37,861 bases of DNA from a virus. The DNA lies in the IMG/VR virus record IMGVR_UViG_3300023083_000103, positions 1 through 37,861 of that record; one strand, given 5' to 3'. The notes beneath the pieces are model-generated. The model did not search any database. It was not told the DNA's origin and was given only the letters and a program-made list of their open reading frames with translations. Shown piece by piece: positions 1 through 15,512 of this stretch (positions within the stretch are counted from its first letter, which is position 1; the number at the start of each line of letters is the position of its first letter). The translations under genes and the position numbers were made by a program.

Positions 1-1353
1 ATGAAAACCAGATCCAAAATTACTCCTGAACTGTCCTTTACTTACTCCAAATTACAGCTGAATACTACTGATGATACCAAATGGTATGTAGGTTATCTAT
101 TACATTTTGAAAATAAAACTGTTTACAGGGGGCGGGAACACGGGAAAAGAAACTACAATATATCTTTAAACTCAGAAAAGGATTTAGATAAAAGGGTGAA
201 GCTTGGTAAGAAACTTTTATTGCTAGTTGAACGAGATTTGGAGAGAGGAATCAATCCTTCCAGCCGTGCGGAATCATTAGAGTCGAAAATCAAAAAACAG
301 CAAGAAATCATTGATGAAGCTCAAAAAGCTAAAATCAGTATTGATGCAGCTATCAAAATGACCAAAGAAGAAAAAGGGTGGTTAAATCCAGTACCTTCCA
401 AAGAACGTACAGCATCCAGTTTAACATCTTTTTATAATAATCAGTTGAAAACTTATCTGGAATCAATTGATAAAAGTGATGATGTTCGTAAAGTTACCAG
501 AATAGATATAAAGAAATTGATTGATGCTAAATTTAATCCTGCACCTGGAGTTAAAGGTTGGAGCGCGTCAAGTTGCGCAATCTATAAAGCTTGGATATCC
601 ATTTTATTTGGTGTGTTGTTGGAAAAAGATTTGATTGACATTAACCCTGTGATTGGAATCAAAATAAAATCTGATTTGGAAAAGATAGATAAAACGCAGA
701 TTGACGGTAAGGATAAATTCGAGCCGTGGACTGCTACTGAGGTGGAATACTGGTTTAGAGATCTAAAAGACGGTACAGAATATGAAAGATTGATTCATGC
801 ATCAAGTCACGTCCTCCACTACTCATTTGTTAGATTGACTGAGATTCTACGTCTACAATGTTGGATGGTAGATTTTGAAAATGAACGATTGACAATACCG
901 CCATCAGCTACTAAATCCGCAAGAAAATATACTAACAAGAATCTGATATCGGTAGATATGCCTGATGCACTTGTGGTGGCACTCAAATCTTGGGTAGCAT
1001 ATAAGTATCCAAATGGATTCACCGATGATGATTACTTATTTCCATCCAACTTACATAGCACCAATAAACCATTCGGCTATAAAATGTTTACCAAATTGAT
1101 GCTAGATACCAGAAATAAATTCCAAAAAAAGTACAAATCAGAAAAGCTTTATATCGATAAACAGCCCTACGGACTCAAACACAGTGGTGTTATTAAGCTA
1201 TTTAAGGCTTTGTCAGCCACTCAAAAAACACCTAATCAGATACAGCAAATTGTAAAAGAACATTGTAGACATAGCTCCTTTAGCACTACTGAGACATATT
1301 TACGTAGGTTAAAGTTGGACTTTGATGTTAAACGTGAGAAAGTGAATTTTTAA
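1..1353 (+). CDS. int: Tyrosine-recombinase integrase of the prophage
   Basis: Catalyses site-specific integration and excision of the prophage. The N-terminal part (about residues 25-85) looks like the arm-binding domain of Bacteroidota phage integrases, residues 130-225 like the SAM-like core-binding domain, and 240-445 is the catalytic domain. Visible active-site residues are R278 (box I, in RLTE), a Lys near 305-313, the box II segment PYGLKHSG with Y390 and K393 where many integrases have His and Arg, H424 in CRHSSFSTT, and the nucleophile Y433. As known from related Bacteroidota integrases, the Lys-for-Arg change in box II is common and does not imply loss of activity. The gene begins at the first base of the window; the N-terminus looks complete, but an earlier start cannot be excluded. 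It reads into the prophage, so attL should lie to the left, outside the window. Confidence 0.95.
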   Translation: MKTRSKITPELSFTYSKLQLNTTDDTKWYVGYLLHFENKTVYRGREHGKRNYNISLNSEKDLDKRVKLGKKLLLLVERDLERGINPSSRAESLESKIKKQQEIIDEAQKAKISIDAAIKMTKEEKGWLNPVPSKERTASSLTSFYNNQLKTYLESIDKSDDVRKVTRIDIKKLIDAKFNPAPGVKGWSASSCAIYKAWISILFGVLLEKDLIDINPVIGIKIKSDLEKIDKTQIDGKDKFEPWTATEVEYWFRDLKDGTEYERLIHASSHVLHYSFVRLTEILRLQCWMVDFENERLTIPPSATKSARKYTNKNLISVDMPDALVVALKSWVAYKYPNGFTDDDYLFPSNLHSTNKPFGYKMFTKLMLDTRNKFQKKYKSEKLYIDKQPYGLKHSGVIKLFKALSATQKTPNQIQQIVKEHCRHSSFSTTETYLRRLKLDFDVKREKVNF

Positions 1354-3971: not shown

Positions 3972-5555
3972 TTGAATAATTTAACCACTAAAAATTTCTT
4001 TACTACATACTCACTGTACCAAAGAATCCAAGAACAAACATTACAGAAAACAGGTGTAAACCAGTATATCCAGTTCTACAAATACCTTTATATAATTCAT
4101 AAGATCATCGCAGACAAGACATTTCACAAGGGTGACTACGTTGGATGCAAAATGAATATTGATATCCTCACAGCATTGTTTGGTGGTAAGGATCAAAGCA
4201 CCTCAAGGATCATTAAAGATTTGGTTTCATGGGGTTTTATAACAAAATCAGAAAACTATACATTCAAAAAATCATCATCACGTTACGTACTTTCCAGTGA
4301 ATATTCAAATGGTGGTATCCTTATATTATCTGTAGATATCACTGATGCAGGTTTTGTTAAAAAACTTATTGATTATGACAAAATTGAAATCAATAAAACT
4401 GTTAAACAGTTAGCTATTAACATTTCCAATTTATCTCTAACTCCTTCTTGTTACTCTTATATTAATAACAAATACAATTTATCCATATCTCATACTATAG
4501 AGAGGGTAGTAGACCAAGAAACTGTCTTTAAGGTGTCTAAAACATTGATTTTAGATGATAAATCACCTGTATTTTTGCTAGGGGGGGTACCGATCGATAT
4601 GGTGGACTTACCATTAATTCAGATTCATTTAAAAGATTTTAACAGCAGTAGACCAGATGAGAAAAGTAGGATATATAACAATTTGACGAATTTGAAAAGG
4701 GAATACAGACAGTATATTTCTTTCAACGGTAAACCTTTAATGATGACAGATATTTCCAACAGTCAGGTTTTGCTATCGGTAGCAGCAGTAAAAAATCAAT
4801 ACAGTATCACATCTGGCAGAGGTTTAAAAAATTTACCAGCAGATATTAAAAAATATCAGGATTTAGCTGAATCAGGTAAATTCTACGAATACATCATGGG
4901 AAAAGCTGGTTATACAGGTGACCGCAATAAATTCAAGAAACAATTTTTTACCGATGTATTCTTTTCCAAGGTTACTGAAGCGTGGTCAACCGCGATTAAG
5001 GATGTTTTCATGCAAGAATTCCCAACTGTATATAAAATTATCAACGAACTTAAATCTAAAGATTATAGAAATTTTGCTATTAGCATGCAGCGTTTGGAAG
5101 CGTCGATTATGATAGACACCGTAGCTAAAAAGATGATTAAAGCTGGAAAATGCATACTGACATTGCATGATGCAATCGTAACGGACAATGATGATGATCT
5201 AATCATGGCAGAACAGCTAATCAGTGATGCTATGGTGAAATACGATATCAATCCTAAGTTCAAAAGAGAAACAGCTGAAAAATATATAGAAAAAACTGAA
5301 CCAATTATGGAAAAAAATGAAATGGTAATAGACCACTACATTGAATCATTTACAGTATCAAATTATAACGATTTAGAGCCTGTTACAGCTAGTCTAACTG
5401 ATCAACAGGTGGAAATATTAATGGAGCAATTTGCAATCGCCTCAATTGGGCACAGAGATGTTTTCGTTGATAGCATGCAGTTCAACATCTATATCAAGTA
5501 CGATGACGATGACCAAAAAATAATCAATTTTAAAAATTTTAGAAAAGCAGCATAA
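3972..5555 (+). CDS. Winged-helix protein with family-A polymerase-like palm (replication protein candidate)
   Basis: A 527-aa protein. Residues 30-110 look like a winged helix-turn-helix (MNIDILTALFGGKDQSTSRI and following). Residues 255-405 carry all three signatures of a PolA-type palm: motif A, D260-I-S-N-S-Q265; motif B, R318-x3-K322-x3-F326-x3-F330, with the exact spacing of E. coli Pol I R754/K758/F762/Y766; motif C, LTLHDAIV with H399-D400. A Gln sits where Pol I has its steric-gate Glu. The B-C distance (82 residues) is shorter than in Pol I (128). I see no 3'-5' exonuclease domain; a 120-residue C-terminal extension follows. The start is TTG directly after an in-frame TAA; the next Met is residue 61, inside the winged helix, so the TTG is preferred. 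First gene of the early operon; no other replication enzyme is visible, so it is probably the replication initiator/polymerase. The assignment rests on motifs only. Confidence 0.65.
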   Translation: MNNLTTKNFFTTYSLYQRIQEQTLQKTGVNQYIQFYKYLYIIHKIIADKTFHKGDYVGCKMNIDILTALFGGKDQSTSRIIKDLVSWGFITKSENYTFKKSSSRYVLSSEYSNGGILILSVDITDAGFVKKLIDYDKIEINKTVKQLAINISNLSLTPSCYSYINNKYNLSISHTIERVVDQETVFKVSKTLILDDKSPVFLLGGVPIDMVDLPLIQIHLKDFNSSRPDEKSRIYNNLTNLKREYRQYISFNGKPLMMTDISNSQVLLSVAAVKNQYSITSGRGLKNLPADIKKYQDLAESGKFYEYIMGKAGYTGDRNKFKKQFFTDVFFSKVTEAWSTAIKDVFMQEFPTVYKIINELKSKDYRNFAISMQRLEASIMIDTVAKKMIKAGKCILTLHDAIVTDNDDDLIMAEQLISDAMVKYDINPKFKRETAEKYIEKTEPIMEKNEMVIDHYIESFTVSNYNDLEPVTASLTDQQVEILMEQFAIASIGHRDVFVDSMQFNIYIKYDDDDQKIINFKNFRKAA

Positions 5556-6184: not shown

Positions 6185-6760
6185 CTATCTGTGTTTGCCG
6201 AGAATAGGGTGAAATTCTTGGGCTATTTTCAGTTCATACACGCTACATAGGGCTTTCATTTCCGCTGGAAGATATATTATATTGATCCTCAGTTTTAGTC
6301 CCTTTAATTCGCCAAGATAGTCCCAATGAGAGAGTTGAAGACCTTGCGATTGTCCCATTTTCTGATAACCTAAATGCAAAAACATTCGACCAGAAATATT
6401 AGCTTGCCCCTTTCCAACATAAAGCACTTTAGAGTCACGGTCGTAGACCTTATTTATTGCAGGAATGGTTCTTGATCCAATACGTTCTTTCAACAGGGAA
6501 TATGAATTGCGAATCATTTCCGCAGTATGATCTGAAGTAATTTCGAACCAGTAGATTGCTGGTCTACCATTCATACCATTATTATGTAGCTTTTCGAACA
6601 CTTTATCAGATTCGCTGGTACCGTGGCATCCCATTTCCAACGATGCTAATTGTTCACAATCGATATCCAATGTGATCACTTCATCAAAAATTGATTGATC
6701 TAAAGTATTTAAAGACTCAATCATTGAATTAGTATAGGATTTCATTAAAGAAGATATCAT
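6185..6760 (-). CDS. GIY-YIG-like domain protein
   Basis: Residues 66-191 follow the GIY-YIG nuclease plan: PAIYWFEI (AIY at 68-70 for GIY), KVLYVGKG (YVG at 114-116 for YIG), an Arg in ISGRMFLHLGY (R125) at the expected catalytic position, and a late Glu (E176) in SVYELKIAQEF before PILGKH. The first 60 residues are a separate helical/acidic part. Homing endonucleases, UvrC and Eco29kI-type enzymes use this fold. Here it may be a nuclease or a non-catalytic DNA-binding protein. It is cotranscribed, leftward, with the secreted protein upstream (2 nt apart) and converges on the early unit. Its strand, opposite to its neighbours, suggests an accessory cassette. Confidence 0.65.
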   Translation of the reverse strand: MISSLMKSYTNSMIESLNTLDQSIFDEVITLDIDCEQLASLEMGCHGTSESDKVFEKLHNNGMNGRPAIYWFEITSDHTAEMIRNSYSLLKERIGSRTIPAINKVYDRDSKVLYVGKGQANISGRMFLHLGYQKMGQSQGLQLSHWDYLGELKGLKLRINIIYLPAEMKALCSVYELKIAQEFHPILGKHR

Positions 6761-7462: not shown

Positions 7463-7924
7463 ATGTATATCATCAGTAACAACACAGTAAACAATCAGGA
7501 AGAAAAAGGCAGGGGTGTTTTCCTCTCTATTTTCAGTGGCATGACTTGGACACAGAACCAAGATAAATTTGGAGTCTGGGATGCCAGCGGAAGCACAAAA
7601 ACAACCGATATGTATTGCGAGGTAAAATCACGGGCAATAAAATCGAATGAATTTTACACGACTTTTCTAGAAGTCAAAAAGTACAACCACCTGATGAATC
7701 TGGCTGATCTATCTCCAACGGGCAAAGCATTCTATTTCGTCACTTTTACAGATGGTGTATCATATTTATACGACCTGAAGAAAATAGAAAATATCGAAAT
7801 ATTTAGAGATCAGAGACTGATGAAGGAAGTGACACTTGAAGGTCAAACCAAAATGGTAATGAAAGATATCTATGCTATTCCGTTATACGCGAAAATGCCT
7901 GGAGTAATTAAATATAAATCATAA
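7463..7924 (+). CDS. PD-(D/E)XK-like nuclease-fold protein
   Basis: The segment FGVWDASG...TTDMYCEVKSR contains an acidic residue (D49) followed by E53-V-K55, the core of the PD-(D/E)XK fold. A second helix-strand unit (FLEVKKYNHLMNL) and a strand with FYFVTFTDG follow, as in Holliday-junction-resolvase-like and VRR-type nucleases. At 153 aa it is the size of a minimal single-domain enzyme. A role in phage recombination or DNA processing would fit its place in the early region. The motif is short, so the call is tentative. The stop overlaps the next ATG (TAATG), showing translational coupling. Confidence 0.45.
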   Translation: MYIISNNTVNNQEEKGRGVFLSIFSGMTWTQNQDKFGVWDASGSTKTTDMYCEVKSRAIKSNEFYTTFLEVKKYNHLMNLADLSPTGKAFYFVTFTDGVSYLYDLKKIENIEIFRDQRLMKEVTLEGQTKMVMKDIYAIPLYAKMPGVIKYKS

Positions 7925-8100: not shown

Positions 8101-8147
8101 GCTCAATAATCATCATCCTCTGGATAGTGTCAGAGGTGGTAAAATAA
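8088..8147 (+). CDS. Possible 19-aa hydrophobic microprotein
   Basis: A 19-codon frame starting inside the end of the 58-aa membrane gene and ending TAATG on the start of the 8147 gene. The product is one short hydrophobic helix (VVGSIIIILWIVSEVV). Overlaps at both ends suggest a coupling cistron, or chance in a tightly packed region. Very short, so low confidence. Confidence 0.3.
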   Translation: MGVVGSIIIILWIVSEVVK

Positions 8148-8491
8148 TGAATAACAACAAATTGGAAATAGAAAAATTTAAGAATATCAAAGATTTTATT
8201 ACGGATTTGCAAGTACAGTATCTGGATAAGATTGCAAACGTAATTCTTGCTGATCAGCCTTATACGAGAACACAGATAAGAGCAAAAAACCGTAGTCATG
8301 ATCAGACGGACATCAGAAGGAAAATCGCTTACATAGCCAGAATCAAGTATAATATAGCTGGTTTGATCATAGCGGATTACTTGAATGTGTCAGCAGTACA
8401 GGTATCAGAATACATACACTCAGCATATAATCGCGCATCAGTGGATAAGAATTATTCCAAGGTGATAGTGGAGCTATTAAACAAATCATAG
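8147..8491 (+). CDS. DnaA-domain-IV-like helix-turn-helix protein
   Basis: The C-terminal half (about residues 56-105: RRKIAYIARIKYNIAGLIIA, then DYLNVSAVQVSEYIHSA and a late Asp) follows the order of the DNA-binding domain of DnaA and Trp-repressor-like proteins: a helix with R and Y, then a helix-turn-helix whose second helix normally reads DHSTV. The N-terminal half is a charged helical region. No AAA+ domain is present. It may bind the phage origin or act as a regulator. The start codon overlaps the stop of the preceding microORF. The similarity is by pattern only. Confidence 0.5.
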   Translation: MNNNKLEIEKFKNIKDFITDLQVQYLDKIANVILADQPYTRTQIRAKNRSHDQTDIRRKIAYIARIKYNIAGLIIADYLNVSAVQVSEYIHSAYNRASVDKNYSKVIVELLNKS

Positions 8492-10050: not shown

Positions 10051-10205
10051 TCTTTCTTTAATAATTTAGTTATTTTAATATATGCAAAACATATATTATA
10101 CTTCTCTTTCGACACCCGCTGATAACATCTGGATATTGGTTGTATAACGTTTAATTTAGTTTTGAAGGCATTTTTGTAATTGAAGTTGTTATTCTTTACC
10201 TTTTA

Positions 10206-10469
10206 CTTGTCTTTGTTCGTGTCTGTTTCCTTGTCTTTGTTCGTGTCCGTTTCCTTGTCTTTGTTCGTGTCTGTTTCCTTGTCTTTGTTCGTGTCCGTTT
10301 CCTTGTCTTTGTTCGTGTCTGTTTCCTTGTCTTTGTCCTTGTCTGTTTCCTTGTCTTTGTTCGTGTCTGTTTCCTTGTCTTTGTCCTTGTCTGTTTCCTT
10401 GTCTTTGTTTGTGTCCGTTTCCCTGTCTTTGTCCTTGTCTGTTTCCTTGTCTTTGTTCGTGTCCGTTTA
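10206..10469 (+). repeat. 24-bp tandem repeat, 11 head-to-tail copies
   Basis: Eleven 24-bp units begin CTTGTCTTTGT and end GTTTC or GTTTA. Units differ at a few fixed positions (TTCGTG or TCCTTG in the middle; GTCTG or GTCCG near the end), and the first five alternate, so a 48-bp higher-order unit is visible. Each unit also reads as two related 12-mers. Strong strand bias: T/G/C-rich on the plus strand, almost no A. No spacers, so not CRISPR. Confidence 0.95.
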
Positions 10470-10599
10470 CCTGTTCTTTCCAATATATTATACTGTGTGT
10501 CTTTAGGCGGTTTTATTAACTCTAAATACTTTGGATTACAGGTTATAGCTTGTGGTGCTATTCAGTCTGCAACGTTAGGTGATGATAACACAAGCAGAG

Positions 10600-13820: not shown

Positions 13821-13836
13821 ACCCCTTAAATGGGGT
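13821..13836 (+). promoter_or_regulatory. Small hairpin over the start codon of the minor head gene
   Basis: ACCCC (13821-13825) pairs with GGGGT (13832-13836); the ATG at 13830 spans loop and stem. A related AAGACCCCTTA sequence starts the terminator at 28027. Possible control of translation, or a remnant of a terminator. Confidence 0.3.
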
Positions 13837-15512
13837 TTGTCGTACTAATAAATCCATTGAATCTTAAACTTTACTACCGTCAATATAATGATCTCATAAA
13901 AAAGCATGAGCGTATAAGTTACCGTATTGCCCTCAATGGGCTGAAAAGTATTTATAAGGATGCTAGTGAGCTGTATGCAGAAAACCCTCAGATACCGATT
14001 GAATTATTGGTGAAAGAATCAGATACACTAGAAATTCTAAAGAAGATATATGATTCTGTAGGTATTGCCACTGCTGTATTTGTGAATTCTACATTCCCTA
14101 AATTAAAGCATGCTGGTTTAGTACTGGAAACTAAGGCCAAAAAGCCTAAGCCTTATGTAATTGATAATTCTGACAAGATAAACTACTGGAAGCAAGAATT
14201 CCTGAGGTACACCCAATCGGCTGATTGTGCGAAGAAAGTAACTGGTGTAACCAATACCACTAAGGATCAGATCCGCACGATCATGACTGATGCGGGAGAA
14301 TCAGGAGCAAGTCATAAGCAGGTTGCAAAAAGCATATTAGGTCTAGGCGGGGAGATCAGTACAAAGAAAAGAGCCTTACTCATAGCACGTACTGAAAATG
14401 CAGTAGCATCTAATAAGGGTGCTATGTACGCAGCACAAGCATCAGGGCTGGTACTTTACAAACAATGGATTGCCAGAAGCGGAGATGATAAGACAAGGGA
14501 TGCTCATGCTGGTATGGTCGGTAGTGATCCTATTCCAATGGATTCACTTTTCACTGTTGGTGATCAAAAAATGTTGCACCCAGGTGATTCCAGCAATGGA
14601 GCTACAGCAAAAAATATCTGTAACTGTAGATGTATCGTTGCATTTATTCCTGCATCTGAGGTTATTTCACCTGCAATCACATCCCAACAGCAAGAGCCAG
14701 TAGTAAACAAACCACACCAACTTGATATATTCGAGACCGTAAAGCCTGTAAAAAGAGAATTTACACCTGCTAAAAATCTTTATGAGGCTGAAAAGTTCAT
14801 CACTGAAAACAAGATATCAAGGAATGTGGATTATGTATGGATTAAGGATATTGATGTTGCCAATGAAGTTAACAAGACGCTATTTGAATTAAAAGAATCC
14901 TACGGATTGAGAGAATTGGAAGTTGTAGGGAAGTCACCTAAGTCTGCAAATGCATTGATGAGTGCTAACTATACCGCACTAAATATTAATCACACTATTT
15001 TCAAAACAATGCAATCAGCCAATGCTGCATATCAAAAATACGAAGCAGGATATGTAGGTATATTGGAAAGAAACATTGCAATAGTCAAGAACAGGGTGCA
15101 GACCACCGCTGTCAGAAAGCAATTAAAAGAACTATATGAGCAACAAAAATATTCCAGATTCACAGTGCATTATACGGAAGAAAACTTCATCAGTGATACA
15201 ATTACGCATGAATATGGACATATTATGTCGGATCAACTTACAGGACATATAAACGGCAGATCAGCTATCAACAAATATATGTTGGGATTAGACGGTCAAC
15301 CGAATGAACTGGCAAAATATTTGAATAGAGATGTAGCTAATAACTACATTAAAGCCAAAAATAATGGCGACATTTACAATGTAAGTTATTATGCGTCAAC
15401 TACTAAAGATGAGTTTTTTGCTGAGACGTTTTTGATGTACACCAAGAAAGATCCTCAGTTGATGGATTATATGTATGAATTTTTTGACCGATATTTTGCA
15501 TTAACTAAATAG
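13830..15512 (+). CDS. Minor head protein (MuF/SPP1 gp7-like) with C-terminal HExxH metallopeptidase domain
   Basis: N-terminal and central part: head-morphogenesis protein. KQWIARSGDDKTRDAHAGMV (211-230), then PGDSSNG (251-257) and NICNCRCIVAF (262-272), the MuF signature. After a Gln/Pro-rich linker (280-310), residues 310-560 form a second domain with HEYGH (H460-E461-H464), a zincin zinc site, and DEFFAETF (E528/E532), a likely third ligand as in gluzincins. MuF proteins often carry fused C-terminal enzymes that can be carried in the virion and delivered with DNA, so this domain could be a head-carried peptidase or toxin. The start at 13830 overlaps a small hairpin and has no clear ribosome-binding site. 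Confidence 0.85.
   Translation: MGFVVLINPLNLKLYYRQYNDLIKKHERISYRIALNGLKSIYKDASELYAENPQIPIELLVKESDTLEILKKIYDSVGIATAVFVNSTFPKLKHAGLVLETKAKKPKPYVIDNSDKINYWKQEFLRYTQSADCAKKVTGVTNTTKDQIRTIMTDAGESGASHKQVAKSILGLGGEISTKKRALLIARTENAVASNKGAMYAAQASGLVLYKQWIARSGDDKTRDAHAGMVGSDPIPMDSLFTVGDQKMLHPGDSSNGATAKNICNCRCIVAFIPASEVISPAITSQQQEPVVNKPHQLDIFETVKPVKREFTPAKNLYEAEKFITENKISRNVDYVWIKDIDVANEVNKTLFELKESYGLRELEVVGKSPKSANALMSANYTALNINHTIFKTMQSANAAYQKYEAGYVGILERNIAIVKNRVQTTAVRKQLKELYEQQKYSRFTVHYTEENFISDTITHEYGHIMSDQLTGHINGRSAINKYMLGLDGQPNELAKYLNRDVANNYIKAKNNGDIYNVSYYASTTKDEFFAETFLMYTKKDPQLMDYMYEFFDRYFALTK

Follow-up and report, generated by a model that had tools for sequence, protein, structure and literature searches.

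Whether a Pol I-like enzyme can start DNA replication is the question raised by virus record IMGVR_UViG_3300023083_000103, analyzed here over its full 37,861 bases ("the window"). Primases are taken to have two unrelated folds, DnaG/Toprim and archaeo-eukaryotic primase (AEP; PMC5862659). In the window, the place held in sister phages by an AEP-type gene is filled by a lone family-A enzyme, which makes the question directly testable. The window encodes a tyrosine integrase, a terminase, a portal, a Mu F-like head protein, a protease, a capsid and a tape measure; because of the integrase and this structural gene set it is classified, by gene content, as a temperate siphovirus-like phage, a small prophage of the Bacteroidota type.

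The gene in question (3972-5555, plus strand, TTG start) encodes a protein of 527 aa, described here as short and family-A polymerase-like on the grounds of fold and family evidence. Among the window ORFs scanned, none was found to encode a helicase, a primase or a second polymerase, so that the initial annotation, which had called this protein the only replication enzyme of the window, is right as far as enzymes are concerned; a second gene, at 8147-8491, may encode a DNA-binding protein. Sequence searches with the protein gave no Pfam family at E 1 and no match among PDB sequences, while the sole matches in PHROG and NCBIfam were at chance level (E 0.32 and 0.017, well short of the cut-off). 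No iterons were found beside the gene: a lone 11-nt repeat in two copies precedes it, probably by chance.

Motifs A, B and C of family-A polymerases had been proposed from the sequence, in this order. The residues concerned (D260, Q265, R318, K322, F326, F330, H399 and D400) are all found at these positions, and the ordered pattern D-x4-[QE], R-x3-K-x3-[FY]-x3-[FY], HD recurs just twice when the protein is shuffled 5000 times. On the plus strand, motif A (D260-I-S-N-S-Q265) lies at 4749-4766, motif B, or the O helix (R318-x3-K322-x3-F326-x3-F330), at 4923-4961, and motif C (H399-D400) at 5166-5171. Two further elements accompany them: a DxxGR-like motif at 4656-4709 (D229EKSR233, followed by N236LTNLKREYR246 with its LK(x)3R246), which corresponds to the Pol I region of the R668 type, and Q373-x-x-E376 at 5088-5099, equivalent to the MQGTAAD region of Pol I. 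Six residues (R233, D260, Q265, K322, E376 and D400) are invariant in 43 out of 43 aligned family members; R246 is kept in 41 and Q373 in 42. Position 399 is His in 39 members and Phe in 4, position 318 is Arg in 33 and Lys in 7; motif B carries an aromatic residue at K+8, mostly Phe across the family, and another at K+4. The invariant residues are taken by us to be those of family-A motif A, the steric gate, motif B, the Q helix, motif C and the DxxGR/TGR arginine. A subgroup features Phe in place of the motif C His (LFDA) and keeps the Asp (contigs L032, 9013-10224, and L111, 5266-6522).

The Gln noticed at the steric-gate position does occupy the place of the Pol I gate Glu, and it replaces the PF00476-type Glu in all 43 members. 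The use of ribonucleotides had been suggested from this residue and from the short distance between motifs B and C. The Gln gate leaves the choice of sugar undecided, and the short distance, common to the whole family, is not by itself evidence of ribonucleotide use.

A structure was predicted by AlphaFold with 25 family sequences. The core (residues ~230-440) is modeled with pLDDT mostly 89-97, and includes a helix at 318-330, corresponding to the O helix, and a beta hairpin at 396-404 around motif C; much of residues 113-230 and 440-527 is poorly modeled. The winged helix anticipated at the N-terminus also appears in the model, with moderate confidence (pLDDT ~60-82): a winged-helix-like region at residues ~30-107 (4059-4292, plus strand) is predicted, in which helices 30-51, 63-70 and 76-86 are followed by a beta hairpin at 90-107 (strands 90-92 and 104-107). 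No exonuclease domain is recognized, as had been stated, nor is a thumb, in a model with low confidence for much of the stretch 113-230. The predicted fold contains a palm, and the protein has no HUH, PriCT or AEP match in Pfam, findings which speak against the Rep-type identity that had been named as the alternative. According to the model, the product of 3972-5555 is a family-A palm with intact catalytic residues.

Comparison of the model with known structures, as proposed for Pol I and for the DNA and RNA polymerases of T7, gives family-A DNA polymerases as all top matches. In Foldseek these are T7 DNA polymerase (1zyq, E 1.2e-4, probability 1.0), Taq and Pol theta. The VIA comparison, which re-examines the Foldseek matches, gives Z scores of 13.9 to 12.4 over 50 family-A DNA polymerase entries (13.9 to 9au8; 13.7 both to T7 6p7e and to Bst 4dsj); the lack of RNA polymerases in this top 50 is no proof against them. 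The matches in a library of viral structures include short proteins from phages (400-450 aa); a "Putative DNA polymerase I" is one of these, and a barbavirus "DNA polymerase" another. With T7 gp5, Taq and Bst Pol I and Pol theta (PF00476) the window protein shares the palm/fingers fold and motifs A, B and C; it differs from them in having no PF00476 match, no exonuclease or recognized thumb, and Gln for the gate Glu.

These comparisons bear on the idea that the protein is a single-subunit RNA polymerase, transcribing phage genes or making RNA at the origin. Its HD[S/A] motif C and DxxGR-like motif resemble, in our reading, those of T7-type RNA polymerases, and an RNA polymerase role has been raised by Yutin et al. 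2024 (PMC11348598) for the related divPolA2 proteins. In Foldseek, however, no RNA polymerase scores better than E 0.07 (yeast mtRNAP), far below the DNA polymerases, and no promoter-binding domain is recognized. No significant profile match was obtained to T7-type single-subunit RNA polymerases or to N4 RNAP II gp16, whereas the structure ranks with DNA polymerases. Single-sequence hhalign comparisons with E. coli Pol I, T7 gp5, T7 RNAP, N4 gp16 and the second PolA of a huge phage (see below) gave nothing significant, a result from which it follows only that single-sequence targets are too weak. Overall, an RNA polymerase seems improbable.

The relationship to divPolA2 decides how novel the protein is. 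The divPolA2 proteins of barbaviruses, their relatives and Vibrio phages are described as having a palm, no thumb, no exonuclease and an N-terminal globular domain; they are reported alongside a regular DNA polymerase, and a repair polymerase is the other role suggested for them (Yutin et al. 2024, PMC11348598). Proteins of this type were also found by our search in Vibrio phage ICP1 and Aeromonas phage 2L372X. When the window family is compared by hhalign with an alignment of nine divPolA2-type proteins, one of them from ICP1, a match over the palm is obtained at 97.7% (E 1.9e-12); for the set made of the window and bacterial proteins it is 97.9% (E 3.3e-13). Both groups have a size near 430 aa and a family-A palm with motifs A, B and C; the other divPolA2 traits, no exonuclease, no recognized thumb and an N-terminal globular domain, are consistent with the model of the window protein, in which confidence is low for much of residues 113-230. 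They differ at the gate position (invariant Gln in the window family, E/H/W in divPolA2) and at position 376 (invariant E, against G/D/E). In a midpoint-rooted tree the nine divPolA2 proteins and the 43 family members form separate clades, with 100/100 support. Because of the significant profile match and of this separation, the window family is placed, from sequence comparison, as a sister branch of divPolA2, and the "undescribed class" of the initial annotation has to be given up: this is no categorically new class, although the branch holding the window protein itself appears to be unnamed so far. The lone position of the window protein in the replication slot of a temperate phage also suggests a function for the recently described and still unassigned divPolA2 proteins, including that of ICP1. 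The ICP1 protein (L101, 1501-2805) is annotated merely as hypothetical, and some ICP1 and related records contain a longer, weaker-matching divPolA2-type protein.

Another short family-A palm protein of Bacteroidota phages, divPolA1 of the Flavobacterium immuto phages, keeps a degenerate exonuclease region (Yutin et al. 2024, PMC11348598); the hhalign comparison with its single sequence is not significant (E 0.36).

A scan of viral sequences with the window protein alone found no relatives, an alignment being required as query. Distant relatives were detected by tblastn in huge phages and on one Hymenobacter plasmid; alignment-based scans found the family on 28 viral contigs and in 17 genomes out of a sample of 395 from the phylum Bacteroidota. 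Its carriers are Bacteroidota integrative elements, the Hymenobacter plasmid, huge phages and temperate phages. Two chromosomal copies form a group with the window protein in the tree (99/91). Neighbors of the chromosomal copies include tyrosine integrases at some loci, AAA_24 genes, DNA methylases, restriction genes and genes termed DUF932-like, a name that is our own reading of their sequence. One Bacteroidota copy (L071, 9023-11083) carries a C-terminal GIY-YIG/NUMOD1 homing-endonuclease extension.

Given the restriction-modification genes adjoining some chromosomal copies, the family might be seen as an enzyme of defence, counter-defence or cargo type with no part in replication. This is very improbable: no PADLOC match was obtained, except for the homing-endonuclease extension of one member, the family spans huge phages, temperate phages, integrative elements and a plasmid, and it exchanges with an AEP-type gene at one locus, as described below.

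The genetic setting differs between small and large elements. The window family, unlike divPolA2, which accompanies a regular polymerase, also occurs in Bacteroidota elements, on a plasmid and in a small temperate phage, there as the only polymerase seen: no regular DNA polymerase was found in the main window ORFs (37.9 kb), and one is present in most large phages of the family. Of 13 large phages, 11 have PolB and 9 have DnaB over cut-off, and Toprim primases are found in some. Since these enzymes are present, the family protein is not the sole replication enzyme there, and its role in large phages may be different. In four large phages (W03, W04, G003 and G004) PolB matches lie far apart in separate frames of less than 520 aa, which suggests a split PolB. 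In the huge phage L004 (LR756511.1, 4446-6892) the family protein is directly followed by a second short PolA, matching PF00476 at E 1e-19, and a Pol III alpha gene is present too. Two ideas were discarded: that huge phages lack a primase, since Toprim searches gave primase-like ORFs in several of them, despite a nearly empty search for the DnaG zinc ribbon; and that the protein acts as a plasmid Rep, the Hymenobacter plasmid having a separate annotated initiator.

The evidence for a role in starting replication comes from the sister phages, picked by terminase relatedness (70-72% identical): a small sample of three close sisters, L109, L110 and L125, with TerL identity to the window of 72% for L109 and 71% for L110. 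Window and sisters share a gene order made of an early slot, homologues of the window genes 7463-7924, 8147-8491 and 10674, and then TerL, with an integrase upstream in L110. In the window, the upstream neighbor of the slot is the tyrosine integrase (1-1353, plus strand; PF00589, E 2.7e-5; PHROG 216, E 1.2e-6; 30% identity to the L110 ORF), and the downstream limit is the conserved early gene 7463-7924 (plus strand), 44-53% identical in L109, L110 and L125. The homologues (35-36% identity) of the second conserved early gene (8147-8491, plus strand) carry a DnaA C-terminal HTH, matching PF08299 in L110 (7754-8134, E 1.4e-7) and L109 (7433-7801, E 1.7e-5); because of these matches, the window gene may encode a protein similar to DnaA domain IV, possibly an origin- or DnaA-box-binding protein of this phage group.

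In L109 and L110 the slot contains a 480-aa protein with PF08800, the BT4734-like N-terminal domain (E 9e-9, over cut-off, in L110; weaker in L109), which is absent from the window. Its motif I is of the form Y-I-D-[IV]-D, and the L110 protein also matches a PHROG "DNA primase/helicase" (E 5e-11). From these profile matches and motifs, it is probably an AEP of the BT4734 type, this family being listed among the AEPs (PMC5862659); the AlphaFold model of the L110 protein, built from two sequences, has a pLDDT of 32. The fold family of BT4734-type AEP primases and Prim-Pol Rep proteins is unrelated to that of the window protein. The slot of L125 contains a 313-aa winged-helix-like protein without family matches, and L125 has neither the polymerase nor the AEP gene; no homology was detected between the L125 protein and the N-terminal domain of the window protein. 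L111, a more distant terminase relative, has another gene of the polymerase family upstream of its terminase. In searches of whole records, the polymerase and the PF08800 gene were never found together in the records tested. The exchange seen among the three close sisters is read as the replacement in place of one replication gene by another, an event described for main polymerases by Yutin et al. (PMC11348598).

Because a replication gene of primase type fills the same slot in the closest relatives of the phage, the window protein is proposed to be a replication initiation enzyme, with a probability of roughly 0.55. The N-terminal winged helix would bind the origin, the exonuclease-less palm would synthesize there a short initial piece of DNA or primer, and host helicase and DNA polymerase III would then take over, so that the protein would do the job of the AEP of the sister phages. 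These three steps, binding at the origin, priming de novo and recruitment of the host replisome, are all inferred, and the polymerase may, in the best reading, bind the origin, make primers or carry out short-patch synthesis. The putative initiation or priming role of the initial annotation is strengthened by the AEP-type slot exchange; similarity of the modeled fold to DNA polymerases does not show priming.

On this point the proposal competes with a primer-extending DNA polymerase, which would elongate or fill gaps from host-made primers and make none itself. Such enzymes are the best structural matches, the aromatic residue at motif B K+4 is as in DNA polymerases, PolB, DnaB and Toprim primases coexist with the family protein in large phages, and the repair role proposed for divPolA2 (PMC11348598) points the same way. 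Yet the window protein is the sole occupant of a slot that in sister phages belongs to an AEP primase-type gene and, unlike replicative polymerases, it has no exonuclease or recognized thumb; primer extension only is considered unlikely, if to be kept in mind. Returning to the initiation enzyme, a wider generalization is tentatively put forward, to which less belief is attached: the family-A palm, with its Gln gate, would be a self-sufficient initiator/primase of small mobile elements, interchangeable with AEP, and would represent a third primase fold.

Three other features of the window were observed. An ORF on the minus strand (6185-6760) contains a GIY-YIG-like stretch (KVLYVGKG), with no significant family match. 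The Mu F-like head protein (13830-15512) shows weak metallopeptidase matches in its C-terminal region. Eleven copies of a 24-bp tandem repeat (~90% alike) are found at 10202-10468, inside the ORF at 10180-10506.
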